Source: Fibrobacterota bacterium (lineage in GTDB: Bacteria; Fibrobacterota; Fibrobacteria; UBA11236). Taken from it: a stretch of DNA of 64,000 nucleotides. This document shows positions 32,186-54,796 of the stretch, one piece after another. A model generated the notes under the pieces. That model had not been told where the DNA came from and did not search any database. It worked only from the letters and a program-made list of their open reading frames with translations. The position numbers were made by a program, and so were the translations under genes. The first letter of the stretch is position 1. The number at the start of each line of letters is the position of its first letter. The stretch spans positions 1 through 64,000 of the forward strand of contig JAQBPO010000031.1 of the NCBI GenBank assembly GCA_028287465.1. The letters are read 5' to 3'.

Positions 32186-34747
32186 CTACAGCGACTTCAG
32201 GAACTTGATCATGGCCGCGGCATCTCCCGCGGACAGGGCCTTGAAATTGGCGGCCGCTTTCGCGCCCTCCCCGCCGTGCCACTGGATGGCTTCGGCCAGG
32301 GTGCGGGCGCGGCCGTCATGCAGATACGCCTCCCCTTCGCTTACGCCTTCCGTATAACCGATGTTCCACAACGGGGCGGTGCGCCATTCCGCGCCGGACG
32401 CGTCGCCTTCGGGCAGGTTGTCCGCCAGGCCCGGGCCCATATCGTGCAGGAGCAGGTCGGTATAGGGATGGATGGTCTGGTTGCGCAGTTCGGCCTTGGG
32501 ATGGTACGGGCCGGTGACCAGGGTGGGGGTGTGGCAGGAAGCGCAACCGGCGCTCTGGAACAGGGCCTCGCCTTTCACCACGTCCGGATCCTTGAACCCG
32601 CGGCGCAAGCTCACTCCGAGCAAGGAGATGTAATCCACCAGGTGCTGCAGGTTCACGTCGTCGATCTCGGCTCCCTTGGCGCCGCAATTCGTCTGGGCGG
32701 ATCCGCAGTCCGGCTCCGGATAGACGGATGAGGTGACTCCCATGTCCGTATTGAACGCGCCGGCCACCTGGGCCAGAACGGTCGGCTTGCCGGCCTTCCA
32801 GCCGAAGCGGCCGAGATGCGGCAGTCCCTTGTCGTACTCGGAAACGATGCGCATGCGGCCCGAGATGCCGTCGCCGTTCGCGTCCTCCGGATCGGCCAGG
32901 CCCTGGATGGCGGATTCGGGGATGGCTTCGAGCAGGCCCATGCCCACCAGTTGGGGCGAGATGCGCGCCGAGAACTGGGTGGGCGACGCCGCCCCAGAAA
33001 AAGCGTAGGCGGGCTTGCGCAGGCCGCCCACGTCGGTCCAACCGCTCAGGGTCACCGATCCCTCGGCGGCTCCGCCCGCGCTGCGCGGCTGCAGGACCGA
33101 GCCCAGTTGCGGATGGGGATTGCCGTTGCCGTCCCCGACCTTGACCACGTACTTGTTGAGGACGGCGCCGACGGCCGGGGGCAGGGCGCGTCCATTGTTG
33201 GCATGGCAGGCATTGCACGAGGAGTTCACGAAGTTGGGCCCGGACTTCCCGGCCATCTCCGCGAACTTGTCGTTGTCCGGTTCGTCATGATCGCCCGTCA
33301 CGAAATCCGTATGGTGCACGCGGCGGCCCAGGACGAAGATCTGGCCGTTCTGGGGAGCCAGGTTGGGCGCCATCTGGATGAAATGGTAGAGCGGTTCGTT
33401 CGAGGTCTGGGTCGGGAGGGTCACGCGTCCCCCTTCCCATGCGGCCACGTCCACGGGATAGGAATCCTCCCGCTCCGTCTTCGCGTCCCCGAAAACTCCT
33501 CTCGGTTCCCACGGGACCAGGCCGCCCTGCCCTATGATGTAGAGCACCACGGTGCCGTAATAGTTCGCGCGGCCTTCCGGCACCCCGGCCAGGAACTGGC
33601 TCACTTCCATTTCCATCCGGTCCCCGATCTTGAGGGGGCGGAAGTTCTCCTTGGGGTTCTGCTTGAAGCTGGTATGGTATTTGAGCGGGTCGGTCGGATC
33701 GCGATCCATGTTGTTGTTGGAATGGTACTCCGCCACCGTCCCGATGCCGCGGTAGAAGGCGCGGCAGTTGGTGGATTCCAGCTTCCATTGGGTGGTGACG
33801 TTGACCTTGACCTCGGTGCCGCCCTTGGCGACCTCGTCCACGATCTCGATCTGGGCCGTGCGGTGCATCCAGTAATGGCCCAGGTAATGATCGTAGATGT
33901 GGAACTCGTCCTCGCGGGCGTGGCGATCGCGGCCGCGGTCGGCGAAACGGGTGATGATGGCGGTGGGCGTTTCCACGATGACATCCGGTTCGAGCTTGGT
34001 GGCCTGATCGAAAAGCGGCACCAGGTTCGGCTTGCTGAAGTTGATGACGGTGGAAGACCCGTTCACGAGGGAATAGATCTGCGAGGGGAAACCGGACTTG
34101 CTGCAGGTGACCGACTCGCCCGCCCCGCCGCTGGTCTTTGCCATGGAGGCCGCGGCGGCCGATGCCGGGGTTCCGCCGGCGACGCCCTCGAAGCCGAAGC
34201 CCGCGCCGGTATTCGCGATGCGGGCGCTGGAGGAGAAGTCCCGGCTGGTAACCTTCACGAAGAACAGGCCCTTATCGTAGCTGGAGAATTCGATCCGCTC
34301 CCCCAATCCCACGGGGCGATGGAGGACGCGCCGGCCCTGGACGTTGATCACGTCGACCATGGCCTGCTCCCCCGGAGCGAGGGGGATGCGGGAAACCGAA
34401 AAGGGCTCCGCGCCCGGCAGCCGCGGCGCCCGGATCCCGGTGATGCCGGACAAGGTGAGCTTGCCGGTCGGATCCGATACCGCCGGGGTCCCGCCGTTTT
34501 GGGTGCAGGATACGCCCGGGATGGGCTTCCCGGCCGCGTCCTGCAAGGTGATGGTGATGTCGGACCAGACCGCCTGGGCCCCGGCCAGGGCCAACAGGAG
34601 GGCCGAAGCGGAAATCCGCGCCGCGCGCCGCGGTCCTGTGTCGGCGGCTCTGCCGACCTTGGCGGCGAAGCCGACCTTGGCGGTCGTGCCGTCCGTCGCG
34701 CTCGCGCCGTTCATGTATTTCTGCGAAATCATCGAGTGCCCGTTCAT
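32186..34747 (-). CDS. Secreted multidomain di-heme oxidoreductase, paralogue 1
   Basis: 853 residues; start ATG 34747 with GGAG seven bases upstream. Signal about residues 42-62 (ISASALLLALAGAQAVWS). Residues 63-115 are a carboxypeptidase-regulatory-like strand region (TITLQDAAGKPIPGVSCTQNGG). Residues 115-170 contain SRIPLAPGEQ ... INVQGRRVL ... KGLFFVKVTSRD, resembling a Por-type sorting tail placed internally. Two heme sites CNACH (about 511) and CASCH (about 734) mark a DUF1111/DHOR di-heme thiol-oxidoreductase-like domain, ending LHDMGPGLADNLPEG ... LWNIGYTEG ... YLHDGRARTLAEAIQWHGGE. The copper- or heme-associated block DRHAREDEFHIYDHYLGHYW lies before the first heme. It probably moves electrons outside the cell; substrate unknown. 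Confidence 0.88.
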   Translation of the reverse strand: MNGHSMISQKYMNGASATDGTTAKVGFAAKVGRAADTGPRRAARISASALLLALAGAQAVWSDITITLQDAAGKPIPGVSCTQNGGTPAVSDPTGKLTLSGITGIRAPRLPGAEPFSVSRIPLAPGEQAMVDVINVQGRRVLHRPVGLGERIEFSSYDKGLFFVKVTSRDFSSSARIANTGAGFGFEGVAGGTPASAAAASMAKTSGGAGESVTCSKSGFPSQIYSLVNGSSTVINFSKPNLVPLFDQATKLEPDVIVETPTAIITRFADRGRDRHAREDEFHIYDHYLGHYWMHRTAQIEIVDEVAKGGTEVKVNVTTQWKLESTNCRAFYRGIGTVAEYHSNNNMDRDPTDPLKYHTSFKQNPKENFRPLKIGDRMEMEVSQFLAGVPEGRANYYGTVVLYIIGQGGLVPWEPRGVFGDAKTEREDSYPVDVAAWEGGRVTLPTQTSNEPLYHFIQMAPNLAPQNGQIFVLGRRVHHTDFVTGDHDEPDNDKFAEMAGKSGPNFVNSSCNACHANNGRALPPAVGAVLNKYVVKVGDGNGNPHPQLGSVLQPRSAGGAAEGSVTLSGWTDVGGLRKPAYAFSGAASPTQFSARISPQLVGMGLLEAIPESAIQGLADPEDANGDGISGRMRIVSEYDKGLPHLGRFGWKAGKPTVLAQVAGAFNTDMGVTSSVYPEPDCGSAQTNCGAKGAEIDDVNLQHLVDYISLLGVSLRRGFKDPDVVKGEALFQSAGCASCHTPTLVTGPYHPKAELRNQTIHPYTDLLLHDMGPGLADNLPEGDASGAEWRTAPLWNIGYTEGVSEGEAYLHDGRARTLAEAIQWHGGEGAKAAANFKALSAGDAAAMIKFLKSL

Positions 34748-35238: not shown

Positions 35239-37686
35239 TTACAGGGACTTGAGGAACTTGATCAGAGCGTCCTGCTGACCGGCCGAGAGCGCCTTGAACT
35301 TGGCGGTCGTAGCGTCCGCTTCGCCGCCATGCCAGAGGATGGCCTCCTTCAGGGTGCGGGCGCGGCCATCGTGCAGGTAGCCTTCGCCGCCGCTCACGCC
35401 GGCCGTCCAGCCGATGTTCCAAAGGGGCGCGGTGCGCCATTCCGACCCGGTCGCCGCGCCTTCGGGAAGGTTGTCGGCCAGGCCGGGTCCCATATCGTGC
35501 AGCAACAGATCCGTGAAGGGATGGATGGTCTGGTTCCGCAATTCCGCCTTGGGATGGTAGTTGCCGGTCTTGAGGGTGGGGGTATGGCAGGAGGCGCATC
35601 CCGTGGAGGCGAAGAGCGCTTCGCCCTCCTTGGCGGTCGCGTCGTCCCAGTCCCGGCGGGCGCGCACGCCGAGCAGGGAGATGTAGTCGACCAGGTTCTT
35701 CAGGTTCTCGTCGGCCAGCTCCTTGCCCTTGGCGCCGCAATCGGTCTGGGCCGAGCCGCAATCCGGATCCGGATAGACCGAGGTCATCACGCCGATGTCC
35801 GAGTTCAGGGCTCCGGCCACCTGATGGGTCACGTCCACCTTGCCGGCCTTCCAACCGAAGCGTCCCAAGTGCGGCTGCCCGGTCACGTAGTCGTTGACCA
35901 CCTGCATCTTCCCGGAAATCCCGTCCTTGTCGGCGTCGTCGGGATCGGCCATGGCCAGGATGCTGGCTTCGGGAACGGCTTCCAGGAGCCCCATGCCCAC
36001 CAGTTGCGGAGCGATGCGCGGCGAGTAGTTGGACGGCTTGGCGCCGGAGAAGGCGTATTCGGGCTTGCGCAGGCCGCCGACATCGGTCCAGCCGCTCAGG
36101 GTGACGCCGCCTTCCGCGGTGCCTCCCACGCGGGAAGGTTGCAGCACCGAGCCCAGGTTGGGGAGCGGCGCGCCGGCGGCATCGCCGACCTTGACCACGA
36201 ACTGGTTGAGCGCGGTGCCGGCCGCGGGCGCGATGGCGCGGCCGTTCTTATGATGGCAGGCGGTGCAGGAGGTATTCACGTAATTGGGCCCGGCCTTGGC
36301 CTTCAGGGTGTCCCAGACCGGATTCCCGGGTTCATCGTGCACGCCGGTGATGAAGTTGGTGTGGTGCACCCGGCGGCCGTGGACGAAGACCTGGCCGTTC
36401 TGGGGGGCCATGTTGGTGGCCAGCTCCATGAACGGATCCTCGGGCTCGTTGGAGGTCTGTTGGTGGATGGTCGTGCGGCCGCCCAGCCAGGCTTCCTCGG
36501 GGATGGGATGGGAGTTCTCGCGTTCGGTGTTGGCATCCCCGAAGACGCCGACCGGGTACCAGGGCACCATGCCCCTGCCGCCGACGATGTAGAGGAAGAC
36601 CGTTCCGTAGTAATTGTCGCGTCCTTCCAAGGTGTCCCCATTGGCGAGCGTCTTCTGCAGGAACTGGCTCACCTCGATTTCCATGTTGTCGCCGATCGCG
36701 ATCGGCTTCCCGGTGCGGGCGTTGCTGGTGATCTCGGTGAAGTAATGCAGGGGGTCGTTCGGGTCGACGTCCATGCTCACGTTATGGTTGTATTCGGCGA
36801 CGGTGCCGATGCCGCGGTACCAGGCGCGGAACTCGCGCGCCTTGGGGTCCAGGGGCCAAAGGGTCCATTGGTCGATGCGGATCTTCTTGCCGCCCTTGGC
36901 CACTTCGTCCGTGATCTGGAGGGTGGCGGTGCGGTTGTCCCAGTAATGGGCGAGGTAATGGTCATACGCATGGAACTGGTCTTCGCGCGCATGGCGATCG
37001 CGGGCGCGGTCCGAGAAGCGGGTGACGAGGGCGGTCGCGGTCTCGGTGATGGTCTCGGGCTCGAGCTTGGTCGTCCCGTCGAACAAGGGCACCAGCTCCA
37101 GCTTGGAGAAGTCGATGGTGGTGGTGGCCCCGTCCTGCACCTGATAGACCTGGGAAGGCATGCCGGACTTGCTGCAGACGATGGAAACCATGCCGGACGC
37201 GGCCGAGGTCTTGGCGAAGACCTTGGCGGGGTCGTTCGCGACCGAGATGCCTTCGAAGACCATTTCCTTGCCCAGGTTCGCGAAATGACCGCGGGTCGAA
37301 TAACCGCGGGCGGAGATGTCCACGATGAGGACCCCGTGATCGGGATGGATGAAGGGAATCCGGTCGCCCAGGGAGAGGGTCCGCTGCAGCAGCTTCTGCC
37401 CCTTCACGTTGAGAATGGTCAGGGTGGCCTTTTCGCCCATGGCCAAGGGGATTCGGGAAAGCGATGCGCCGCCGGTCACGCCTCCTTGCGTCGGGCGGAT
37501 GGAGGATGCCTCTTTGGAGAGCACCAGGTTTCCCGTCGCATCGGAAGAGGAGGGCGCGCCGCCGATCACGGAGCAGGTGACCCCGGAGAGCGGTTGATTC
37601 TTGCCGTCGACCATCTTGAGGGTCAAGGCCGGCCATCCCAACTGGACACCCAAGGCCATCAAAAAGAGCGCTGATCTGGATTTCAT
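35239..37686 (-). CDS. Secreted multidomain di-heme oxidoreductase, paralogue 2
   Basis: 815 residues from ATG 37686, with GAGG upstream; the frame continues upstream but lacks a better start. Signal MKSRSALFLMALGVQLGWPA. It repeats the plan of paralogue 1: LTLKMVDGKNQPLSGVTCS, then SRIPLAMGEKATLTILNVKGQKLL ... HGVLIVDISARGYS, the DRARDRHAREDQFHAYDHYLAHYW block, heme sites CTACH (about 474) and CASCH (about 697), and the same C-terminal LHDMGPGLADNLPEG ... LWNIGWTAG ... YLHDGRARTLKEAILWHGGE. Much of the heme domain is near identical to paralogue 1, pointing to a local duplication. The roughly 490-base gap and separate promoters suggest separate control. Confidence 0.88.
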   Translation of the reverse strand: MKSRSALFLMALGVQLGWPALTLKMVDGKNQPLSGVTCSVIGGAPSSSDATGNLVLSKEASSIRPTQGGVTGGASLSRIPLAMGEKATLTILNVKGQKLLQRTLSLGDRIPFIHPDHGVLIVDISARGYSTRGHFANLGKEMVFEGISVANDPAKVFAKTSAASGMVSIVCSKSGMPSQVYQVQDGATTTIDFSKLELVPLFDGTTKLEPETITETATALVTRFSDRARDRHAREDQFHAYDHYLAHYWDNRTATLQITDEVAKGGKKIRIDQWTLWPLDPKAREFRAWYRGIGTVAEYNHNVSMDVDPNDPLHYFTEITSNARTGKPIAIGDNMEIEVSQFLQKTLANGDTLEGRDNYYGTVFLYIVGGRGMVPWYPVGVFGDANTERENSHPIPEEAWLGGRTTIHQQTSNEPEDPFMELATNMAPQNGQVFVHGRRVHHTNFITGVHDEPGNPVWDTLKAKAGPNYVNTSCTACHHKNGRAIAPAAGTALNQFVVKVGDAAGAPLPNLGSVLQPSRVGGTAEGGVTLSGWTDVGGLRKPEYAFSGAKPSNYSPRIAPQLVGMGLLEAVPEASILAMADPDDADKDGISGKMQVVNDYVTGQPHLGRFGWKAGKVDVTHQVAGALNSDIGVMTSVYPDPDCGSAQTDCGAKGKELADENLKNLVDYISLLGVRARRDWDDATAKEGEALFASTGCASCHTPTLKTGNYHPKAELRNQTIHPFTDLLLHDMGPGLADNLPEGAATGSEWRTAPLWNIGWTAGVSGGEGYLHDGRARTLKEAILWHGGEADATTAKFKALSAGQQDALIKFLKSL

Positions 37687-37822
37687 GGCGGTGTAACCTC
37701 GCTGTTCACGGTCTGAAGGAGTCGTAGCCCCATATTTTCCCACCTGGAAGGCCATAGTCACCTGTTTCCCGCGCGGTTTATCGGGGCGCATCCCACCAAG
37801 TCCGAGTCCAAAACCCATTTTA

Positions 37823-37850
37823 CATCCTCCAAATGTTCCATTTGAAGATG
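37823..37850. promoter_or_regulatory. Interrupted inverted repeat upstream of di-heme paralogue 2
   Basis: CATC ... CAAATG TTC CATTTG ... GATG: the inner 6-bp arms are perfect with three bases between, and the outer 4-bp arms are spaced unevenly. Located about 140 bases before the start. Operator role is inference. Confidence 0.3.
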
Positions 37851-38204
37851 ACACCGATTATCGCCGGTCCCGCCCCCGATCGGCCTATTGGGCCGATTCC
37901 GCTGGATTTCAGGGCGATCCCCCACCCGTCATCCGAATCTACCCCGAACCGGACCGTTAACCCGCGGGTCCTTCCGAGATGGCCCTAATTTCGGCGCGAT
38001 CCCGTAATTGCGAATGGGAACACACGGGATAATGCGGGGTCGTTTTGACCCGCGAGGGGCGGGCGGGATGCGGGCGCAAAATCTGGGAACGTGGGAGTCC
38101 GATCCGGTCAAGGATGGGTCAAATCCCGGGGTGCCAAAGTGGCGATTCCAGGCCTTTTTGGCAGGGTGGCCTGGATTGGATTTCAGGAGGCCGGGATCGG
38201 CCGT

Positions 38205-38262: not shown

Positions 38263-39645
38263 TCACCAGGTGGGATCGATCGGGGTGATGCGCGGCAATG
38301 CGTTTTCGATGGCCTCGGCCGCTTCCAGGCACAGATCCTCGCGCCACAGATCGGCGTAGATCTGGATCCCGGCCGGTACGCGGTCCGCGACGCCCATGGG
38401 CAGCGCCACCGAAGGCAATCCGAGCAGGCTGCCGGGAGTGATGAAGCGCGTGGCCTCGAGCAGCATCGGCAGCCCGGATTCCGGATCGAGGTCGGCGTCC
38501 ACGGGCCAGGGCGGCCGGGTCAAGGTGGGCCCGATCATCACGGGGTACTCCGCGAGATACCCGGACCAGACCCTGGAGAGCCGGGACCGCGCGGAGTGGA
38601 GGGCGCCGTTGGGGATGCGGGCGGAGTCGAAGAACCGGCACATGCGCGTCATGTAGCGGACGAGCGGCTCGGAGAGGATGGGCCCGGCCGCTTCCAGCAT
38701 CACGGTCATATCGATGGCCATCAGGCGTCCCCAGGTTTCCGTCACGAGCCCGAGTTCCGGCGGCCCGGTTTCGGCGACCTCCCATCCGGCATCGGCCAGG
38801 ATGCGCCCGGCTTCCCGGATGGCGATGAGGGTGGCCGGCGCGATATCGGCCCCTTCGATCCGCGTTACCAGGGCCGCCTTGCGCGCGGCGGGAGGGCCCT
38901 GCAAAGGCGCGCTGACCGATCTGGGATCGCGGATGTCGCGCCCCGCCAGTACGGAAAGGCCGACCCGCAGGTCCGCGACCGTGCGGGCCATGGGCCCTTC
39001 GACCAGCATGGCCTGCATGGCGAAGCCCTGATCCAGCGGCTCCAGGGAACGCGCGCTCGGGATCCGGCCCGCGGTCGGCTTGAGCGCGGCGACGCCGCAG
39101 CAATAGGCGGGGACGCGCAGGAAGCCGCCCATATCGTTGCCCAGGCCGAACGGGGCCATGCCGGTGGCGAGGGCGGCGGCGTCCCCTCCGCTGGATCCGC
39201 CCGGGGTGAGATTCGGGTTCCAGGGATTCAGGGTCGTTCCGCGCAGGGGATTGCCCGCTCCCAGGCGCAGGCCGCATTCGGAGAGATTGGTCCGTCCGAT
39301 GGGAATGGCGCCGGCGGCCTTCATGCGCGCCACCACCGGCGCGTCCACGCGCGGAAAGGCATGCTTCAGGGCCGGTATGCCCAAGGTGGTGGCGGAACCC
39401 TCGCAATCGATGCTTTCCTTGATCGTGAACGGGACCCCGTGGAGCGGGCCTTTGATCGGGCCGTTGTCGGCCGCGTCGGCAGCCTCCAGGGCGGCGTCCG
39501 CCAATACCACGGTGACGGCGTTGACGTAGCCGTTCACCTCACGGATGCGGTCCAGATGCGCTTGGACGGCCTGGCGGCTGGTCACCTCGCGGGCGGCGAT
39601 CCGCCCGGCCAATTCGCTCGCGGATAGTTCGTGCAGTTTCGCCAT
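38263..39645 (-). CDS. Amidase-signature protein lacking nucleophilic serine
   Basis: 460 residues, the usual length of amidase-signature enzymes. Lys of the triad is present (K76 in VPFTIKESID) and so is the GGSSGG loop with the cis-serine (S151). The third motif, normally GGS-[IL]-R, reads NDMGGFLRVPA, so the nucleophile position is F175. The following FxGLKPT-type segment (YCCGVAALKPTAGRIP) is intact. The encoding codon is TTC; one base change would restore Ser. It may be an inactive or repurposed homologue, or a sequencing error may be involved. It shares the strand with, and lies 45 bases downstream of, the COG4705-type gene. Confidence 0.85.
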   Translation of the reverse strand: MAKLHELSASELAGRIAAREVTSRQAVQAHLDRIREVNGYVNAVTVVLADAALEAADAADNGPIKGPLHGVPFTIKESIDCEGSATTLGIPALKHAFPRVDAPVVARMKAAGAIPIGRTNLSECGLRLGAGNPLRGTTLNPWNPNLTPGGSSGGDAAALATGMAPFGLGNDMGGFLRVPAYCCGVAALKPTAGRIPSARSLEPLDQGFAMQAMLVEGPMARTVADLRVGLSVLAGRDIRDPRSVSAPLQGPPAARKAALVTRIEGADIAPATLIAIREAGRILADAGWEVAETGPPELGLVTETWGRLMAIDMTVMLEAAGPILSEPLVRYMTRMCRFFDSARIPNGALHSARSRLSRVWSGYLAEYPVMIGPTLTRPPWPVDADLDPESGLPMLLEATRFITPGSLLGLPSVALPMGVADRVPAGIQIYADLWREDLCLEAAEAIENALPRITPIDPTW

Positions 39646-39690: not shown

Positions 39691-40470
39691 CTAGTGGGCC
39701 TGCTCTGCGGGTTTTTGGGGGAAGATCAGGATGCACGCCAGGATGAAGGCCAGCAGGATCGCGGAGGCCCAATAGCGGCTGAGGGCCAGGCCCCCTGATG
39801 TGATTGGCTTGTCGAGCAGATCCCCGACGACGGCGCCCAAGGGCCGGGTCAGGATGAAGGCGCTCCAGAAGAGGAAGGTCCTGGATATCCGCGTCCAGAA
39901 ATAGGCCGCGGCGGTCAAGGCCAGCAACAGGCCGAACAGGACCGCGCTTCCCGCGTACCCGAAACCGGCGGAGTCGGCGGTCCAATCCCCCAAGGCCGTG
40001 CCCAGGGTCTGCGAGAACAGGATCGTCATCCAATAAAACCATTCCGCCTTGCGGGAACGCACCGAATCGATGGAGACCGAACCGAGGACCCGGTGCCAAA
40101 GGAACAAGGAGGCCATCAGCAGGCCGAACAGGAGGGCGGACCCCCCGGCATAACCGATCCCCAGGGAACGATCGAAATAATCGGCAAGGGTGGTGCCGAC
40201 GGTCGTCGTCGCGATGATGGTCAACCAATACAGGATAGGGACAAACCGCTTCGCCGATACCTGGGCGAATACGGCGAGGATGAATGCGGCCGAGAATATC
40301 GCGGTGCCGACCAGATATCCCAGGTCCAGGGACATGGTGACCGCGTCGCCGCCGGTTTCGCCGAGGGTGGTGGCCCCGATCTTGATGATCCAGAATACCA
40401 GGGTAACCTGAGGCACCTTCGCCAAAGCCCCGGAAACACCTGAGCCCGCTTCTCGCATCTCCGCCGCCAT
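39691..40470 (-). CDS. COG4705-type multipass membrane protein
   Basis: 259 residues from ATG 40470, with a strong GGAGGAGG site. About seven to eight membrane helices. Repeated motifs of the COG4705 family are visible: VFWIIKIGATTLGETGGDAVT, LYWLTIIATTTVGTTLADYFDRSLGIGYAGG, FYWMTILFSQTLGTALGDWTADSAGFGYAGS, and LTRPLGAVVGDLLDKP. The recurring TTLGDT-like turn with an acidic residue suggests a transport or metal-binding role, but none is established. Confidence 0.82.
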   Translation of the reverse strand: MAAEMREAGSGVSGALAKVPQVTLVFWIIKIGATTLGETGGDAVTMSLDLGYLVGTAIFSAAFILAVFAQVSAKRFVPILYWLTIIATTTVGTTLADYFDRSLGIGYAGGSALLFGLLMASLFLWHRVLGSVSIDSVRSRKAEWFYWMTILFSQTLGTALGDWTADSAGFGYAGSAVLFGLLLALTAAAYFWTRISRTFLFWSAFILTRPLGAVVGDLLDKPITSGGLALSRYWASAILLAFILACILIFPQKPAEQAH

Positions 40471-40636
40471 GCTTCCTCCTCCGCCTGCATTTCCGGGAGA
40501 CCGTTTTGGCGCAACCCCGAGGGAATTTAGTTTTTTGACGGGAGGACGGCCTCGATCCCGCCATCCGGAAATCCCGGTCCTCCGATCCGTCCACATTGAG
40601 CTATCCCCGGCATTTCCAGTAATGTACTTTCAGCCC

Positions 40637-41431
40637 GTGAGACCCTGGAAACTGATGCCCGTTCTGCTGGTATGCCTCTTCGCCTGCGAGCCGTTCCGAT
40701 TCAGCCCCACCGGGCTTGAGTGGAAGCACCCCAAGACCCTGTACAACCTCGCCAATCTGGACAGTCTGGCCCTGGACAGCGGCGGGACGCCCCGCCATTT
40801 CAAGATCGCCGTGATGGCGGATTCCCATCTCTGGTACGATGAATTGAAGGTCGCGGTCGAACGGATCAATGCCGATACCTCCATCGATCTGGTCATCCTG
40901 GCGGGGGACTTCACCAAGTTCGGATATGCCGACGAATACGACAGGTTCACGGACATCTTCAACAAATTGAAGCCGCCGCACCTGGTGGGCATCGGCAACC
41001 ACGACCTGCAGGCCGATGGGGTGACCGTCTACAGGAACGTGTTCGGCCCGACGGATTTCTCCTTCGCTTATCGGGGAGTCAAATTCATCTTCTTCGACGA
41101 CAATGCCCGCGGCATCAAATGCTGCGTCCCCAAATTCGATTCGCTGGAGAAGGAACTGGCTGGGGCCGGGGACTCCCTCAGGATAATCGCCGTATCGCAT
41201 GCGCCGCCCCTGAGCGATCAATTGGACACCGCGGCAAGCGAACGCATGGCGGGATTGTTCGCGAAATACAAGGTGGCCCTGTCCATCCACGGCCATACCC
41301 ATGCCTACGCATACGGCGCGGATTACGGGGGCGGCGTGCCTTACCTCGTTGCGGACGCCCTGAACAAGAGGAACTATGTCGCGGTCGTCCTGGCGGATTC
41401 CTCCCTGACGGTGGAAAGGGTGTATTTCTGA
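40637..41431 (+). CDS. Lipoprotein metallophosphoesterase, copy 1
   Basis: 264 residues from GTG 40637, chosen because copy 2 has an aligned GTG at 43077 and no upstream ATG; here an ATG at 40622 is an alternative. Lipobox LFAC with lipid-acceptor C17. Calcineurin-like phosphoesterase motifs: MADSHLWYDE, ILAGDFTKFG, GIGNHDLQ, VSHAPP and HGHTHAY, giving a two-metal site. It probably removes phosphate from an envelope substrate. Its stop overlaps the ATG of the next gene by one base. Confidence 0.86.
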   Translation: MRPWKLMPVLLVCLFACEPFRFSPTGLEWKHPKTLYNLANLDSLALDSGGTPRHFKIAVMADSHLWYDELKVAVERINADTSIDLVILAGDFTKFGYADEYDRFTDIFNKLKPPHLVGIGNHDLQADGVTVYRNVFGPTDFSFAYRGVKFIFFDDNARGIKCCVPKFDSLEKELAGAGDSLRIIAVSHAPPLSDQLDTAASERMAGLFAKYKVALSIHGHTHAYAYGADYGGGVPYLVADALNKRNYVAVVLADSSLTVERVYF

Positions 41432-42036
41432 TGCTTCGCCGCGGTTACTTCGATGGCATGAGGGCCGGAGCGCTCTGCCTTATCGCCTTGGGAGCGGTCC
41501 TATGCGGAACCTGCCGGGCGGAAGACGGTCGTTCCCCCTTCCTCCCGGATTTCGCGCGGCTTCAATTCGCCGGCCATGCGGGATTGCTGAGCGTGGGCCC
41601 CGGATACTCCTGGTGGGATAACCGGATCGAAGCCGGATTGGCCTTCGGTTTCGTGCCCGAGTTCGCAGGCACCCGGAACACCGTCATCCTCTCCCAGAAG
41701 AATTCCATCTCCACTGGCCGCTTGCGCTTGGGCCCTTCCTACTTCCTGGAGCCCCTTATGGCCGGCTTCGCGACCCACCTCTCAATCGGGAAGGAATATG
41801 AAATCGTGCTTCCCGAATCCCAACGGGACTATTATTGGCCGGACGCCCTCTACTTCTGGATGTTCGGGGCCGCCAAGGCCGGATGCATGTTCGAAAAGCC
41901 GACGTATCTTTCCGGTGTGGCGGCGATGGTCGAGGTCGGCACCATCAACCAGGACGTGCAAGCCCATACCCGGAACCACTACGTTACCCTGGGCGATATC
42001 CTCAGCGTCGCGATTTCGGCCCAATTCTACCTCTAA
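41431..42036 (+). CDS. Putative outer-membrane protein, copy 1
   Basis: 201 residues, signal peptide (GALCLIALGAVLCGTCRA). The mature region has amphipathic beta strands (LQFAGHAGLLSVGPGYSWW, IEAGLAFGFVPEF, GRLRLGPSYFLEPLMAGFATH, FWMFGAAKAGCMFE, AISAQFYL) ending in a terminal aromatic/hydrophobic FYL, as in outer-membrane barrels. No family recognised; PagL- or LpxR-like lipid A modifying barrels are possible in view of the flanking phosphatases but there is no motif support. Confidence 0.7.
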   Translation: MLRRGYFDGMRAGALCLIALGAVLCGTCRAEDGRSPFLPDFARLQFAGHAGLLSVGPGYSWWDNRIEAGLAFGFVPEFAGTRNTVILSQKNSISTGRLRLGPSYFLEPLMAGFATHLSIGKEYEIVLPESQRDYYWPDALYFWMFGAAKAGCMFEKPTYLSGVAAMVEVGTINQDVQAHTRNHYVTLGDILSVAISAQFYL

Positions 42037-42085
42037 CTCCCCCATAAGCCATAGGGCTGGAAAGACCTGTACCATCCGCCGGGAA

Positions 42086-42151
42086 GTTTGTGTAGGCTAT
42101 TAAGGCTCCCGTAACGCTTTTCCCTGCAACGATAAGCGATTGGCGAAACCA
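42086..42151 (+). promoter_or_regulatory. Conserved leader before PAP2 gene, copy 1
   Basis: The block from TAGGCTATTAAGG through CAACGATAAGCGATTGG is strongly conserved with 44524-44589 in front of the second PAP2 gene. Conservation outside the reading frame suggests a shared promoter or leader. A TATTAA at 42098-42103 is not kept in copy 2. Confidence 0.4.
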
Positions 42152-43009
42152 ATGGTCCGATTCCTATCCGCTTTTCTCGTGCTTGTATCCGGCCCGGCCC
42201 TGCTCCATGCGGCCCAGCCTTATTCCCTAAGCAAGGAAATCGATCTGCCCATGGGCGCAGGCCTGTTGGCGATGAAATACAATTCAGGAATCATGCTCGC
42301 GCAGACGCGCGCGATGCCCCGCGATCTTTCCTCCCTGCATCGGAGCCAGATTCCGGCCATGGATCGCTGGGCCATCGGGTTCTATTCCCCGCAATTGTCC
42401 GCCCTGAGCAGCGTAGTCGCGGGCGTGGAGTTCCTGGTTCCCGCGGCGGTCAACCTCATGGATACCTATCATGGCGAGCAACCCTGGCAGGGCGCCATCG
42501 TCGACGCCGTGATCCTCCAGGAGGCGCTGATGTTGTCATCGGCCCTGAGCAGCTACTCGAAAAGCATCCCCATGCATTCGACTCCGTTGACCTATGATTC
42601 CGACGTGCCGGACGAAGTGAAGCGGGCGCCGCAGAACGCGAGCAGCTTCTTTTCCAACCATACCACGTCCGCTTTCACCACCGCGGTATTCTCGGCCTAT
42701 ACCTTCCAGCTCCGGCATCCGGATTCGGAGCTTGTGCCTTGGGTTTGGGGAGGCGGCTTGGCCCTGGCGACCGGCGTGGGTTCCATGCGGGTCCTGGCCG
42801 GAAAGCATTTCCCGTCGGACGTTCTCGCGGGAGCCGCCGTGGGCGCGTTCTGCGGTTATCTCGTGCCGAAATTGCATACGCGCCGTCCCTCGATCCAAAA
42901 TGGCAAGAACGGCCCGGAAGGCAAAGCCGATCCCAGGAGCTGGGACATGGGGGTTTCGATGCCGGAAGGCACCAGCGCCGTGGGGCCCGCTTTGTTCGTC
43001 CGTTTCTAA
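42152..43009 (+). CDS. PAP2-family phosphatase, copy 1
   Basis: 285 residues from ATG 42152; a TTG 12 bases upstream would add four residues and no clear ribosome site decides. Signal/anchor MVRFLSAFLVLVSGPALLHA. PAP2 motifs: NASSFFSNHTTSAF at motif 2 and GSMRVLAGKHFPSDVLAG at motif 3 with Arg, His and Asp in the correct spacing (S-x-R-x5-H-x3-D). These enzymes dephosphorylate isoprenyl or lipid A phosphates, or phosphatidic acid, at the membrane. The pairing with a metallophosphoesterase and a barrel suggests stepwise envelope phosphate removal. Confidence 0.87.
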   Translation: MVRFLSAFLVLVSGPALLHAAQPYSLSKEIDLPMGAGLLAMKYNSGIMLAQTRAMPRDLSSLHRSQIPAMDRWAIGFYSPQLSALSSVVAGVEFLVPAAVNLMDTYHGEQPWQGAIVDAVILQEALMLSSALSSYSKSIPMHSTPLTYDSDVPDEVKRAPQNASSFFSNHTTSAFTTAVFSAYTFQLRHPDSELVPWVWGGGLALATGVGSMRVLAGKHFPSDVLAGAAVGAFCGYLVPKLHTRRPSIQNGKNGPEGKADPRSWDMGVSMPEGTSAVGPALFVRF

Positions 43010-43076
43010 TCCTCGCGTCCCTGAAACCGGTAACTTTAAGGTTTCGCGGGAATGGCGGCGAATCTAACTTCAACCC

Positions 43077-43871
43077 GTGCGCCCTCGGAAAACGCTTCTC
43101 CTCCTGCTGGCCTGCCTCTTCGGCTGTCAGCCCTTCCGATACAGCCCCACCGGGTTGGAGTCGAAGCATCCCAGGACCATGTACAACCAAGGCAACCTGG
43201 ATCGGCTCGCCCTGGACCCCCTCAGGACGCCCCGCCATTTCAAGATCGCCGTGATGGCCGATTCCCATCTCTGGTACGATGAATTGAAGGTCGCGGTCGG
43301 GCGGATCAACCTCGACCCCACCATCGATTTCGTCATCCTCGCCGGGGACTTCACCAAGTTCGGATACGCCGACGAATACGACAGGTTCACGGACATCTTC
43401 AACAAATTGGCCGCGCCGCACGTCGTGGGCATAGGGAACCATGACCTCCAAGCCGACGGGTTCACGCTTTTCACGCGCGTGTTCGGGCCGACGGATTTCT
43501 CCTTCGTCTACCGCGGGGTCGAATTCATCTTCTTCAACGACAATGCCCGCGGCATCCGTTGCTGTATCCCCAAATTCGACTGGCTCGAGACCGAACTGGC
43601 GGCGGCCGGGGACACCCTGAAGATATTCACGGTATCGCACGCCCCGCCCCTGAGCGATCAATTGGACACCGCCAAAAGCGAACGCATGGCGGGATTGTTC
43701 GCGAAATACAAGGTCGCGCTCTCCATCCACGGCCATACCCACGCCTTCGAATACAGCGAGAAATTCCGGGACGGCGTGCCTTACCTCGTCACCGATGCCG
43801 TCAACAAGAGGAACTATGTCACGGTGGTCCTGGACGGGGACGTCTTGACGGTGGAGCGGGTCTTTTTCTGA
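43077..43871 (+). CDS. Lipoprotein metallophosphoesterase, copy 2
   Basis: 264 residues, same length as copy 1, from GTG 43077 (no ATG upstream in frame). Lipobox LFGC with C17. Identical motif set: MADSHLWYDE, AGDFTKFG, GIGNHDLQAD, VSHAPPLSDQ, HGHTHAF. Differences cluster in the region before the first motif and around residues 140-200. Both copies keep all metal ligands visible in the motifs, so neither looks decayed. The stop overlaps the next ATG by one base, as in copy 1. Confidence 0.88.
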   Translation: MRPRKTLLLLLACLFGCQPFRYSPTGLESKHPRTMYNQGNLDRLALDPLRTPRHFKIAVMADSHLWYDELKVAVGRINLDPTIDFVILAGDFTKFGYADEYDRFTDIFNKLAAPHVVGIGNHDLQADGFTLFTRVFGPTDFSFVYRGVEFIFFNDNARGIRCCIPKFDWLETELAAAGDTLKIFTVSHAPPLSDQLDTAKSERMAGLFAKYKVALSIHGHTHAFEYSEKFRDGVPYLVTDAVNKRNYVTVVLDGDVLTVERVFF

Positions 43872-44476
43872 TGCCCCGCGATCGATCCTCAAATAGGACG
43901 AGCGCCCGGACCCTGCGCCTGATCGCCTTCGGCGCGATCCTGTGCGGATCGATCCATGCCGATGGGCACCGCTCTCCCCTCCTCCCGGATTTCGCGCGCC
44001 TGCAGTTCGCGGGCCACGCGGGCATGGTGAGCGCCGGGCCCGGGTATTCCTGGTGGGATCATCGGATCGAGTCGGGATTGAGTTACGGATGGGTGCCGGC
44101 CTTCGTCGGCGATCGGAACATCCATATCCTTTCCCAGAAGAACTCCATCTCCCTGGGGCGTCTGCGGCTGGGCCCGGCCTTTTTCCTGGAACCGGCCATG
44201 GCCGGATTCGCGACCCATTTTTCGGTCGGCGACAAGTACGAGATCCTGCTTCCCGATTCCCAACGGGATTATTACTGGCCGGACGGCCTGTTCTTCTGGA
44301 TCTTCGGCGCCGCCAAGGCGGGATACATGTTCGAAAAGCCGACATACCTTTCCGGTGTGGCGGTGATGGCGGAAGTCGGCACCATCAACCAGGACATCCA
44401 GGCCTATACCCGGAACCACTACGTGACCTTGGACGATATCCTCAGCCTCGCGATTTCGGCGCAATTCTACCTCTGA
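43871..44476 (+). CDS. Putative outer-membrane protein, copy 2
   Basis: 201 residues, as copy 1, about 80 percent identical in the mature part. Signal peptide (TLRLIAFGAILCGSIHA). Retains GPGYSWWD, RLRLGP, SQRDYYWPD, FGAAKAG, and the terminal ISAQFYL. Substitutions are mostly conservative. Unknown function. Confidence 0.7.
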   Translation: MPRDRSSNRTSARTLRLIAFGAILCGSIHADGHRSPLLPDFARLQFAGHAGMVSAGPGYSWWDHRIESGLSYGWVPAFVGDRNIHILSQKNSISLGRLRLGPAFFLEPAMAGFATHFSVGDKYEILLPDSQRDYYWPDGLFFWIFGAAKAGYMFEKPTYLSGVAVMAEVGTINQDIQAYTRNHYVTLDDILSLAISAQFYL

Positions 44477-44523
44477 GCCCCCGGATCCATGCGGCCGTAA
44501 GGCCCGTTACCCTCGCCGGAAAT

Positions 44524-44589
44524 GTTTTTGTAGGCTGTTAGTGCTCCCGGAACACTTTTCACTTCAACGATAAGCGATTGGTAAAATCA
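44524..44589 (+). promoter_or_regulatory. Conserved leader before PAP2 gene, copy 2
   Basis: Matches 42086-42151 with only scattered changes (for example TAGGCTGTTAGTG against TAGGCTATTAAGG) and an identical ATAAGCGATTGG near the start. Lies between the outer-membrane and PAP2 genes of copy 2. Confidence 0.4.
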
Positions 44590-45447
44590 ATGCTCCGATT
44601 CATATCCGTTTTTTTCGTGTTCGTATCCGGCCCGACCCTGCTTCACGCCGCGCAGCCTTACGCCCTCCGCAAGGAAATCGATCTTCCCCTGGGCGCGGGC
44701 CTGTTGGCGATGAAATACAATTCCGGCTCCATGCTCGCGCAGACGCGCGCCATGCCCCGCGACCTCTCCTCCTTGCATCGGAGCGAGATCCCCGCCATGG
44801 ATCGGTGGGCCATCGGGTTCTACTCCCCGCGGCTTTCCGCCCTGAGCAGCGTGGTCGCGGGCGCGGGATTCCTGATCCCCGCGGCGGTCAACCTCATGGA
44901 TATCTACCATGGCGAGCAACCCTGGCAGGGCGCCATCGTCGACGCCGTGATCCTCCAGGAGGCATTGATGTTGTCATCGGCCCTGAGCAGTTATTCCAAA
45001 AGCATCCCCATGCATTCGACCCCGTTGTCCTATGATCCAAACGTACCGGACGAAGTGAAGCGGGCGCCCCAGAACGCGAGCAGCTTCTTTTCCAACCATA
45101 CCACGGCCGCCTTCACCACCGCGGTATTCTCGGCCTATACCTTCCAGCTCCGCCATCCCGATTCGGAGCTCGTGCCTTGGGTCTGGGGAGGCGGCCTGGC
45201 CCTGGCGGCGGGCGTGGGCTCCATGCGCGTCATGGCCGGAAAGCATTTCCCGTCGGACGTTCTCGCGGGAGCCGCCGTCGGGGCATTCAGCGGTTACATC
45301 GTGCCGAAACTGCATATGCGCCGATCCTCCATTCCCAAAGGCAAGGACGGTCCGGAAGGGAAGTCGGATCCCAGGAAATGGGATGTCGGCGTTTCGATGC
45401 CGGAAGGCACCAGCGCCGTGGGCCCATCCCTTCTGGTCCGCTTCTGA
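44590..45447 (+). CDS. PAP2-family phosphatase, copy 2
   Basis: 285 residues from ATG 44590 (TTG at 44578 alternative as in copy 1). All motifs are retained: NASSFFSNHTTAAF and GSMRVMAGKHFPSDVLAG. Roughly 88 percent identical to copy 1. It is the last gene of the array; a terminator follows nine bases after the stop. Confidence 0.88.
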   Translation: MLRFISVFFVFVSGPTLLHAAQPYALRKEIDLPLGAGLLAMKYNSGSMLAQTRAMPRDLSSLHRSEIPAMDRWAIGFYSPRLSALSSVVAGAGFLIPAAVNLMDIYHGEQPWQGAIVDAVILQEALMLSSALSSYSKSIPMHSTPLSYDPNVPDEVKRAPQNASSFFSNHTTAAFTTAVFSAYTFQLRHPDSELVPWVWGGGLALAAGVGSMRVMAGKHFPSDVLAGAAVGAFSGYIVPKLHMRRSSIPKGKDGPEGKSDPRKWDVGVSMPEGTSAVGPSLLVRF

Positions 45448-50161: not shown

Positions 50162-51832
50162 TCAGTCGACGCCTGAAGGGGCGCCAGGAGGGGCACCAGC
50201 GGGGGCGCGATTCCCGTCCCTGCGGAAAAGCTTCCACCCCATACGGCCGGCGGCATCGTAAACCTCCTCGATGACCATGCCCGCCGATCCGGCCACGGCG
50301 CGCCTGCGACCGCTCGATGAGGCCGCACCGCCGCCCCCGCCCGGGTTGGCGCGGTGGATCGATACCGGGGGCATGCACCCCTGGTAGGTCACCTGGAAGA
50401 GGGCGTTATTGTCGTAGTCCGCCACGAACAGGCTGCCGTCCGGGCCGTATTCCATGTCCTGGATATCGGCGCTGAAGGCGAGGTTGAACGGCGATGCGAC
50501 CACTTGGCGGATGGGGGCGGGGGGCCCGGGCGGGATGACCATGAGCTTGGGCTGCCAGGCGCCGTTGATGGCGTAGATCCATTCCTTGCCTTCGAACCAG
50601 GGCGGGAACTTCACCTTGGAGTCCGAGGCCGGATCGAAGTGGTAGATCGGTCCCGCGCCGATCCCGCACCCGTCCAGTCCGGGGACCGGGTCCGGATTCG
50701 GGCCATCGTGCTCCCAGATGGCCGCGGGCATGGCCGGAGGCAGGACGTTCAAGCCGGTATTGTTGCGGGACCAGTTCACCGGACGGGCGGGATCGTATTT
50801 CATGCCCGTCTGGCCCTGGATGGCCACGCATTTCCCCGAGGCGAAATCCCAGTGGCAATAGGGCTGGTTGTCCTTGATGAAATAGGGATAGCCCATATTG
50901 CCGGCGGTCTCCGTAATGGTGATCTCGTCGGCGCCGGCGGGCCCGCGGTCCGAATTCTGCAAGGCCGCGGGACCGAACTCCCCGATGAAGAGCCGGCCCG
51001 TGATCATGTCGGCATGGATGCGGTAGGGATTGCGGTGGCCCATGGTGTAGATCTCCGGGCGCGTCTTCGCCATCCCCCCGGGGAAGAGATTCCCTTCGGG
51101 GATGGTGTAATACCTCCCGTCCACCAGGACGGGTTCGGGATGGATGCGGATGACCTTTCCCCTCAGGTCGTTGGTATTCGCCGTGCTGCGCTGATCGTCC
51201 GCGTATTCGTGCCCGGGGGCCTCGTCCATGGGCGAGTATTGATCGCTCACCGAGGGGCGCGAGTTGTCGCCGGTGGAGAAGTAGAGGTTCCCCTGCTTCC
51301 CGAAGATCATGGATCCGGCCGCATGGGACTCCACCTGCTGGGGGTACTCCAGCAGCACCTGTTCGGAAGGCAGGTCCAGCTTGTCTTCCACGACGCGGAA
51401 GCGGGCCAGGCGGTACGAGAATTTCCCGCCCGCGAAGGATCCGTTCCCGTTCCAAAGGGAGCGGGGGGCGTAGAGGACGTATAGCCACCGGTCCTCCAGG
51501 AAGGTCGGCCCCGCCGCGACGGACAGAAGGCCTCCTTTGTCCCCGCCCATGTCGGCCACCTGCAAGGTCGCGGCCACCTTGACCTGGGCGGTGAGCGGAT
51601 CGTAGACCGTGATACGGCCCGCGCGTTCGGCGACGAATACCCGGCCATCCCTGGCCACGGACAACTCCACGGGCTCGTGCAGGAATCCCGGCACGGTCAG
51701 CATGGTCTTCCTGAAATCCCCCGGCTTGGGATCCGCGCAAACCGATTGGGCCGCGGCGCGGCCCGGGTGCAAGGCGCATGCGATGAAAAGGGCGGCCAGC
51801 CCCGTAAAATCCTTACCTGGCATTGCGAACAT
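50162..51832 (-). CDS. PQQ-type sugar dehydrogenase-like propeller
   Basis: 556 residues; ATG 51832 with AAGGGGGAG upstream. Signal peptide (GLAALFIACALHPGRAAAQ). Six-bladed propeller of the glucose/sorbosone dehydrogenase family: EPVELSVARDGRVFVAERAGRITVYD, GGLLSVAAGPTFLEDRWLYVLYAP, VESHAAGSMIFGKQGNLYFSTGDN, NDLRGKVIRIHPE, GHRNPYRIHADMITGRLFIGEFGP, and DMEYGPDGSLFVADYDNN. This subtype resembles the propellers fused to or paired with ThuA-like proteins. A 60-residue Gly/Ser-rich tail ends in a degraded EVYDAAGRMGWKLFR strand that recalls a sorting tail. Periplasmic or extracellular sugar oxidation is inferred. Confidence 0.84.
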   Translation of the reverse strand: MFAMPGKDFTGLAALFIACALHPGRAAAQSVCADPKPGDFRKTMLTVPGFLHEPVELSVARDGRVFVAERAGRITVYDPLTAQVKVAATLQVADMGGDKGGLLSVAAGPTFLEDRWLYVLYAPRSLWNGNGSFAGGKFSYRLARFRVVEDKLDLPSEQVLLEYPQQVESHAAGSMIFGKQGNLYFSTGDNSRPSVSDQYSPMDEAPGHEYADDQRSTANTNDLRGKVIRIHPEPVLVDGRYYTIPEGNLFPGGMAKTRPEIYTMGHRNPYRIHADMITGRLFIGEFGPAALQNSDRGPAGADEITITETAGNMGYPYFIKDNQPYCHWDFASGKCVAIQGQTGMKYDPARPVNWSRNNTGLNVLPPAMPAAIWEHDGPNPDPVPGLDGCGIGAGPIYHFDPASDSKVKFPPWFEGKEWIYAINGAWQPKLMVIPPGPPAPIRQVVASPFNLAFSADIQDMEYGPDGSLFVADYDNNALFQVTYQGCMPPVSIHRANPGGGGGAASSSGRRRAVAGSAGMVIEEVYDAAGRMGWKLFRRDGNRAPAGAPPGAPSGVD

Positions 51833-53297: not shown

Positions 53298-53360
53298 TCG
53301 ATTAGGCCCTAATTTCCGGTGTGGTGCGCCTTTTAGCCACACCCGGCGCTATCGTCCGCG

Positions 53361-53369
53361 TGCTATACT
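53361..53369 (+). promoter_or_regulatory. Extended -10 promoter of plus-strand arm
   Basis: TGCTATACT: TGn followed by TATACT, 14 bases upstream of the start codon at 53384, with GGAAGGGG between. Predicted start of transcription about 53376, so the leader would be very short. Confidence 0.42.
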
Positions 53370-53383
53370 GGGAAGGGGATCCG

Positions 53384-54796
53384 ATGATTTTCAAGCAAGA
53401 TAGTTTCCGAACCCGCCGTGTCCTGGCGGCGCTTTTGGCCGGTGCCGCGCTTTCCGCGGCATCGCCCCGATCGGCCGAAGCGGCCACCCTCCCCGGAGGA
53501 TTCACGGAAACCAAACTGATCGGCTCCCTCAATCCCACTTGCGTCGAGGTCGCTCCGGACGGTCGCGTCCTGCTGTGCGAGAAGAGCGGCCGCATCCGCG
53601 TCTACAAAGGGGAGAAATGGCTGACCGCGCCCCTCCTGACCGTGGACGCCGATTACGTAGAGGAACGGGGCCTCCTGGGGCTCGCCCTGGATCCGGATTT
53701 CGAGGCCAACCCCTTCGTCTACGTCTTCTACACCGCGAAGAACCCGGCCCATAACCGCGTCAGCCGTTTCCGCGTCGAGGGCGATGCGGTGACCGGTGCG
53801 GAGCAGGTGTTGATCGATCTCAATCCGGCCATCGCCCTCCGTTCGGGAGGCTGGCATAACGGCGGGTCGATCCATTTCGGCAAGGACGGCAAGCTGTACA
53901 TCTCCACCGGCAACAATACCATCCAGGCGAACAGCCAATCCCTGGACGTGCTGCTCGGCAAGATCCTGCGCCTCAATCCCGACGGGAGCATACCGGACGA
54001 CAATCCGTTCTACAAGACGGCGACCGGCAACAACCGGGCGATATGGGCCCTGGGCCTGCGCAATCCCTATACCACCGGCATCCACCCCGTCACCGGGCGC
54101 TACCTGGTCAACGACGTCGGGGACGGCAGCTTCGAGGAGATAAACGACGGCAAGGCCGGGACCAATTACGGCTACCCCAAGGCGGAGGGCCATGCGGGCA
54201 CCGCCCCCACGGGCCTGACGGGGACCTATGGGGATCCGGTTTCGTATTACAGCCATGGCGACGGTTGCGCCATCACCGGCGGGACCTTCTACCATCCCGC
54301 CTCCAACACCTTCGGAACGCCCTACGCCGATCTGTTCTTCTTCGCCGACTATTGCAACGGATGGATCAAGACCTTGGATCCGGCAAACGGCAACGCCGTC
54401 AAGCCCTTCGCCACCGGCGTCCCCCGGCCCATCTTCCTGAAGGCTGCCCAGGACGGGAGCCTGTACTACGTATGCCGCGGGGCCCGGGCGGCCGGCCTGG
54501 GCAGCGGATCCGCCGAGGACAACCAGTCCACCAACGACGGAAGCCTGTACCGGATCAAGGGGCCCATCGCCACCTCGGCGCGCTATGCGGGCTACGGGCA
54601 TCAAGCCGGGGAACTGGTGCCGGTCCTCCCCGCGCAGGGCAGGCTGCTTTTGCCCGCGGGCAGGGGCCATGCCTCGCTGTACTCGCTTTCCGGCCGCAAG
54701 GTTTGGGAATACCAAGGTACCGCGTCCGTTACGGCCACTTGGCTGGATCTGCCCTCGACCCTGCCGGTCGGGACCTACCGCGCGAGGTTCGAATGA
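53384..54796 (+). CDS. PQQ-type sugar dehydrogenase-like propeller
   Basis: 470 residues from ATG 53384 (GGAAGGGG site). Signal region (VLAALLAGAALSAASPRSAEA). Family landmarks: SLNPTCVEVAPDGRVLLCEKSGRIRVY, GLLGLALDPDFEANPFVYVFYTAK, WHNGGSIHFGKDGKLYISTGNN, SLDVLLGKILRLNPDGSIP, WALGLRNPYTTGIHP, VNDVGDGSFEEINDGKAGTNYGYPKAEG. The last 50 residues, ASLYSLSGRKVWEYQ ... LDLPSTLPVGTYRARFE, are the clearest Por-type sorting-tail resemblance in the window. First gene of the plus-strand arm; it overlaps the next gene by four bases. Confidence 0.87.
   Translation: MIFKQDSFRTRRVLAALLAGAALSAASPRSAEAATLPGGFTETKLIGSLNPTCVEVAPDGRVLLCEKSGRIRVYKGEKWLTAPLLTVDADYVEERGLLGLALDPDFEANPFVYVFYTAKNPAHNRVSRFRVEGDAVTGAEQVLIDLNPAIALRSGGWHNGGSIHFGKDGKLYISTGNNTIQANSQSLDVLLGKILRLNPDGSIPDDNPFYKTATGNNRAIWALGLRNPYTTGIHPVTGRYLVNDVGDGSFEEINDGKAGTNYGYPKAEGHAGTAPTGLTGTYGDPVSYYSHGDGCAITGGTFYHPASNTFGTPYADLFFFADYCNGWIKTLDPANGNAVKPFATGVPRPIFLKAAQDGSLYYVCRGARAAGLGSGSAEDNQSTNDGSLYRIKGPIATSARYAGYGHQAGELVPVLPAQGRLLLPAGRGHASLYSLSGRKVWEYQGTASVTATWLDLPSTLPVGTYRARFE

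Follow-up and report, generated by a model that had tools for sequence, protein, structure and literature searches.

Why does a Fibrobacterota bacterium carry two adjacent copies of a three-gene block for envelope phosphatases, and which of the three genes form the working unit? The locus that raises this question lies within the first 64,000 nucleotides of contig JAQBPO010000031.1 (assembly GCA_028287465.1; lineage UBA11236), a stretch here called the window, where genes for a metallophosphoesterase (MPPE), a small predicted outer-membrane barrel and a PAP2 phosphatase follow one another twice in the same direction. The duplication exposes an underlying unit, an unnamed enzyme-barrel pair of gut Bacteroidota (Bacteroides, Parabacteroides, Phocaeicola) and Fibrobacterota, and the trio probably edits phosphate-bearing envelope lipids and is not simply a set of two ordinary phosphatases.

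Six open reading frames (ORFs), all on the plus strand, make up two head-to-tail blocks, 40622-43009 and 43077-45447, as had been claimed in a preliminary description of this DNA:

40622..41431, plus strand: MPPE copy 1, lipoprotein calcineurin-like phosphoesterase (ORF; start ATG 40622 or GTG 40637; PF00149, 3.4e-16; lipobox L-F-A-C)
41431..42036, plus strand: barrel copy 1, 201 aa, signal peptide and predicted eight-stranded outer-membrane beta-barrel (AlphaFold2 model, mean pLDDT 82)
42140..43009, plus strand: PAP2 copy 1, likely start ATG 42152 (PF01569, 4.1e-16; signal peptide, six predicted transmembrane helices, C-terminal beta-hairpin; model pLDDT 84); aligned motif columns C1 K-x6-T-P, C2 SNH, C3 R-x5-H-x3-D
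43077..43871, plus strand: MPPE copy 2 (PF00149, 4.7e-17; lipobox L-F-G-C; 77% identical to copy 1)
43871..44476, plus strand: barrel copy 2 (73% identical to copy 1; 1-nt TGATG overlap with MPPE copy 2)
44578..45447, plus strand: PAP2 copy 2, likely start ATG 44590 (PF01569, 7.9e-16; 88% identical to copy 1; K-x6-T-P and SNH)

The TGA stop codon of MPPE copy 1 ends at 41431 and the barrel ATG starts on its last base, an arrangement repeated at 43871, and the barrel and PAP2 genes are separated by about 100 nt in each block, with 67 nt between block 1 and MPPE copy 2. Protein lengths match between the copies (264, 201 and 289 aa for MPPE, barrel and PAP2 from matching starts) and the copy-to-copy offsets are 2440, 2440 and 2438 nt; the identical gene lengths and the offsets given in the preliminary description were both correct on recounting. 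Its estimate of 80-88% protein identity holds for PAP2 (253/289 residues, ungapped) and is slightly high for MPPE (204/264) and the barrel (147/201), the corresponding nucleotide identities being 88%, 83% and 77%. Pfam scores of the two copies were 60.7 and 63.5 bits for Metallophos (PF00149; cut-off 21.5) and 59.3 and 58.4 bits for PAP2 (PF01569; cut-off 27.2). No Rfam match to RNA elements was obtained in the region, and a promoter and terminator scan gave scores no better than shuffled sequence.

Alignment searches with the Fibrobacterota MPPEs retrieved MPPEs from two Bacteroidales metagenome-assembled genomes, each directly followed by a barrel gene, and the Fibrobacterota and Bacteroidales barrels are homologous (hhalign probability 95.9, E 5e-9). 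When 395 Bacteroidota genomes were searched for the barrel, 12 loci in 11 genomes were found, and at all 12 the gene immediately upstream, in the same orientation, encodes an MPPE. The converse search of these genomes with an MPPE profile gave 12 matches below 1e-90, which are exactly the 12 barrel loci, and nothing better than 1e-29 beyond them; although building the profile from paired MPPEs biases it towards paired loci, the empty interval is still wide. The same pair is present in four PLSDB records (Bacteroides finegoldii, Parabacteroides distasonis, Hymenobacter sp. NBH84 and Phocaeicola massiliensis), in which the barrel, where annotated, is called a hypothetical protein. Counting all of these, the barrel gene lies directly downstream of the MPPE gene on the same strand at 22/22 loci (17 from Bacteroidota and 5 Fibrobacterota cassettes), with the two genes overlapping or sitting within a few bases of each other at nearly all of them, and the trees of the two proteins are congruent within Fibrobacterota and for most other groupings. 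Weaker MPPE matches (from 1e-29) were, where inspected, longer proteins of another architecture. MPPE-barrel fusions were considered among those of 615-690 aa and rejected, the four inspected carrying C-terminal repeats that resemble a PQQ-type beta-propeller and not a barrel; these four (L107, L110, L114 and L121) belong to a distinct Bacteroidota family, about 620-690 aa long, in which an MPPE domain is combined with such repeats. Literature searches found no description of the MPPE-barrel pair, although their coverage of subscription papers was limited, so that a prior description is possible.

Within Fibrobacterota, the barrel is present in 3/168 genomes of the phylum, all of one genus, and two related genomes hold three more loci with the trio in the same gene order (G002:C33, G002:C28 and G004:C39). 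The preliminary description had proposed a functional unit with an outer-membrane partner, and had allowed that the barrel might never accompany phosphatases elsewhere; the recurring order and the unseparated pair in two phyla speak for the former and against the latter. The order of three genes recurs inside the genus, but the trio is not fixed and PAP2 is not standard beyond the genus. A fixed trio across phyla was rejected, PAP2-like neighbours having been recognised at only 2/17 Bacteroidota loci and in other arrangements, which is a lower bound, since one of these two escaped the PAP2 profile. PAP2 is an add-on to the MPPE-barrel pair, standard only in this Fibrobacterota genus.

The barrel matches no Pfam or NCBIfam family, and a single-protein scan of the genome contigs with the barrel as query gave no match. 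The AlphaFold2 model predicts a signal peptide followed by eight strands. Identity with the known enzyme PagL was considered and rejected for want of a significant match (E 0.041, TM 0.37). MPPE has a signal peptide with a lipobox, judged by eye, in which Cys17 is invariant in 18/18 homologues, and a lipid anchor is predicted. Its metal-ligand motifs D-x-H, GD, GNHD, H and GHxH are present in both window copies and in all Fibrobacterota members, and most metal-ligand residues are invariant among the 18 homologues. In most Bacteroidota MPPEs (L074, L075, L077-L083) the first metal motif reads D-x-Q, not D-x-H, which may alter how metal is bound. Among the best solved relatives by profile are Rv0805 and the "Phosphohydrolase" entries 2zo9/3d03, known as the glycerophosphodiesterase GpdQ; no NCBIfam equivalog cut-off was reached by MPPE.

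The PAP2 model has fold matches to human LPP1, B. subtilis PgpB, LpxE and E. coli PgpB, and shows a C-terminal hairpin besides six membrane helices. The classical PAP2 signature reads K-x6-RP (C1), PSGH (C2) and SR-x5-H-x3-D (C3). In an alignment of 24 PAP2s of the class, the C1 arginine (KX6RP) is replaced by threonine in 5/5 cassette PAP2s and retained in the other 19/19, and the C2 glycine is replaced by asparagine in 5/5 cassette PAP2s, whereas the C2 histidine and the C3 arginine, histidine and aspartate are invariant in 24/24. Further PAP2s of the genus that lie outside cassettes also read RP at C1. The intact PAP2 signature of an LpxE/LpxF lipid A phosphatase is lacking in the cassette PAP2s, the C1 arginine being missing. 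The earlier statement that all recognised catalytic motifs survive in both copies is thus right for MPPE, which keeps all metal motifs, and wrong for PAP2, in which C1 reads K-x6-T-P and not K-x6-R-P in both copies. Cassette PAP2s end in the predicted beta-hairpin with a terminal phenylalanine, and many PAP2s of the class also end in phenylalanine, for example that encoded on contig C83 of the same genome.

Since the phosphate-binding arginine of C1 is lost, the cassette PAP2 would be either weakened or re-specialised. In E. coli PgpB, R104A retains 2.0% of C55-PP and 0.4% of PGP activity, and G162A retains 0.8% and 0.2%, respectively (PMC7413402); R88A abolishes lipid A 4'-dephosphorylation by P. 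gingivalis LpxF (PMC11784228), R88 being taken as the C1 arginine from its order ahead of H116 and H157. The PgpB values, the replacements at C1 and C2 and the canonical PAP2 with R-x6-RP and SGH kept at C83 would all suit a pseudo-enzyme or regulatory membrane subunit beside MPPE as the sole catalyst, which we consider somewhat unlikely: the C2 histidine and the three C3 residues are all retained, asparagine at C2 occurs too in a PAP2 with intact RP (L128), and the ratio of nonsynonymous to synonymous substitution rates (dN/dS) between the copies is the lowest of the three genes. Because this ratio is low, it can be argued that the cassette PAP2 has a job. For a residue whose loss all but eliminates activity in the relatives that have been studied, the cassette PAP2s amount to a natural experiment.

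The sole context clue found to the substrate points to inositol/sphingolipid clusters in Bacteroidota. In one Bacteroidota genome (G516), genes for MIPS, PgpA, GtrA, a CDP-alcohol phosphatidyltransferase and an Aur1-type PAP2_3 protein precede MPPE and barrel on one strand, and this upstream content matches the BT1526-1522 operon of B. thetaiotaomicron, which makes phosphatidylinositol (PI) and inositol phosphoceramide (PMC9246714, PMC8791184). In P. distasonis the pair follows genes for an NDP-sugar synthase, a hypothetical protein, a CDP-alcohol phosphatidyltransferase and a HAD hydrolase, matching the content of the proposed "alternative" inositol-lipid cluster (PMC9246714). In two cases, then, the pair comes immediately after a cluster that produces inositol lipids or has been proposed to. 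In the plasmid record of Hymenobacter sp. NBH84 (L135), a convergent PAP2 gene lies directly behind the barrel gene, with an IS1595 transposase nearby. The Aur1-type protein ahead of MPPE in G516 and the presence of structures related to sphingomyelin synthase and inositol phosphorylceramide synthase among the weaker fold matches of PAP2 could suggest that the cassette PAP2 has become a phosphotransferase of head groups, comparable to Aur1 or sphingomyelin synthase. However, those weak matches are to members of the same superfamily in any case, and the best profile is PF01569, not PAP2_3 or PAP2_C, so that this seems improbable. Both this possibility and that of a pseudo-enzyme concern the PAP2 arm only and are compatible with the explanation favoured below.

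Phosphate scavenging would offer a different account of the whole trio, in which MPPE would release phosphate from soluble organophosphates, acting in the periplasm or at the cell surface, with the barrel as a small pore or anchor and PAP2 as a second, broad acid phosphatase. The profile relatives of MPPE do include purple acid phosphatases and cyclic-nucleotide phosphodiesterases, and the barrel is of the outer-membrane type. On the other hand, no phosphate-uptake genes were recognised beside the pair in the loci read, PAP2 is of the integral six-helix lipid-phosphatase type and lacks the C1 arginine, and two Bacteroidota loci sit in lipid clusters; we regard scavenging as unlikely.

Whether the second block is real, and how old it is, was judged from the copies themselves and from their neighbours upstream, which served as synteny markers and are given for context only:

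38263..39645, minus strand: amidase (PF01425)
35239..37854, minus strand: di-haem oxidoreductase, DHOR (PF06537), second marker

The genome assembly (5.8 Mb, 98% complete) is fragmented into 100 contigs, which might raise the suspicion of an assembly artefact, a refuting case named in the preliminary description. Both copies lie on one 197.5-kb contig (C7), of which the window is the start, and both were recovered in whole-genome searches. As the copies differ at 12-23% of bases, mainly at third codon positions in the barrel and PAP2 genes, the duplication is not an assembly repeat; they also hold separate branches in the trees, and the probability left for an artefact is negligible. A plasmid origin was likewise rejected, no near DNA match being found in the plasmid collection. 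There is nothing unusual about the tandem copy as a gene duplication. The dN/dS comparison proposed in the preliminary description gave, by the NG86 method, 0.33 for MPPE, 0.22 for the barrel and 0.17 for PAP2 (dS 0.42, 0.76 and 0.39), and from these values both copies are under purifying selection.

A single trio stands at G002:C33 beside the same amidase and DHOR as at the studied locus; the amidase is 74% identical there and has no comparable match in G001, G003, G004 and G005, and a DHOR homologue adjoins the amidase in L047. In trees the two window copies group together (support 100/99 for MPPE and 100/100 for the barrel), followed by G002:C33, G004 and G002:C28, with the same branching order for both proteins. 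Trees and synteny show that the trio is older than the duplication and that the duplication is local to this lineage; from the sequences compared, it is dated after the split from the nearest relative, which keeps one copy in the same place. Relative-rate counts of changes unique to copy 1 and copy 2 were even for MPPE (17/18) and PAP2 (12/9) and uneven for the barrel (21/6, chi2 8.33). The earlier suggestion that the copies may have diverged in substrate finds little support here, MPPE and PAP2 evolving at equal rates and only barrel copy 1 being faster. A gene for a DUF347 four-repeat membrane protein (39691-40596, minus strand) is divergent from MPPE copy 1, and other genes occupy this spot in G002:C33. 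The DHOR marker is itself part of a second, older tandem pair upstream (32186-34747 and 35239-37854, minus strand; 60% identity across 808 residues), and a DHOR-like ORF that is more distantly related lies at 22287-23927; two glucose/sorbosone-dehydrogenase-like proteins (50162-51832, minus strand, and 53321-54796, plus strand) are encoded near each other and are only 29% identical.

The explanation that we tentatively favour, while holding it at slightly less than even confidence, is that MPPE is an outer-membrane phosphohydrolase of lipid head groups with a dedicated barrel, joined by a re-purposed or weakened PAP2, the trio having been duplicated. Its core would be a two-gene unit of the outer membrane, in which a calcineurin-like phosphoesterase with a lipid anchor and its dedicated eight-stranded barrel are translationally coupled and may act jointly, perhaps as a complex, on envelope molecules that carry phosphate, with lipid head groups the most likely. 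MPPE would hydrolyse a phosphodiester or phosphomonoester at the outer membrane, while the barrel would dock the enzyme or present the lipid. To this pair one Fibrobacterota genus would have added the six-helix PAP2, re-specialised or weakened by loss of the phosphate-binding arginine of C1 and probably acting at the inner membrane, on lipids of the same pool; both copies of the duplicated trio would be kept by selection mainly as extra dosage. The most economical reading across hosts is a putative outer-membrane phosphohydrolase of lipid head groups, the exact lipid differing between hosts.

Several points weigh against this explanation. The lipid-cluster neighbourhood is found at only 2/17 Bacteroidota loci, other loci having unrelated neighbours, and the two cases could reflect one shared locus where clusters were exchanged. 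MIPS (PF01658) is absent from all 21 Fibrobacterota tested, the own genome and 20 relatives, with control genomes positive. The fold matches of the barrel are weak (best E 0.009, none at 0.001; plausible ones OmpX, PagL and OmpA), and YN00 rates were not computable for several pairs. As MIPS is missing from 21/21 genomes, home-made inositol is not the head group in these Fibrobacterota, and home-made inositol lipids are ruled out as the substrate in this host. A bolder version, in which MPPE and barrel are an unnamed outer-membrane lipid-editing machine of Bacteroidota and Fibrobacterota acting on phospho-head groups (inositol or other phosphosphingolipids, phospholipids) and the cassette PAP2 is a new subclass working without the C1 arginine as head-group transferase or regulated partner, is distinctly speculative. 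The lasting points are the unnamed MPPE-barrel pair, the two lipid-cluster neighbourhoods and the PAP2 subclass that lacks the C1 arginine.

Compared with known systems, the closest in gene context are the Bacteroides inositol-lipid clusters (BT1522-1526, and the alternative cluster with NTP-transferase, CDP-alcohol transferase and HAD genes), directly downstream of which, on the same strand, the MPPE-barrel pair stands in G516 and P. distasonis; MIPS is missing in the tested Fibrobacterota, and the word metallophosphoesterase is absent from the two papers on these clusters (PMC9246714, PMC8791184). With E. coli PgpB, LpxE, LpxF and human LPP1 the cassette PAP2 shares six transmembrane helices, the serine and histidine of C2, the arginine, histidine and aspartate of C3 and the PF01569 domain, and it differs from them by threonine for arginine at C1, asparagine for glycine at C2 (5/5) and an extra C-terminal beta-hairpin. 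The eight-stranded outer-membrane barrels OmpX, OmpA, NspA and PagL have strand number and topology class in common with the predicted model of the barrel, which is without significant fold or sequence match to them, belongs to no sequence family and is strictly tied to an MPPE gene. With GpdQ-like and class III cyclic phosphodiesterases (PF00149) MPPE shares the Metallophos fold by profile and, in both copies, all metal motifs, but unlike these it has an N-terminal region of its own, is predicted to be a lipoprotein, comes with the barrel in every case and forms a discrete family set apart from its next relatives by the gap from 1e-90 to 1e-29.

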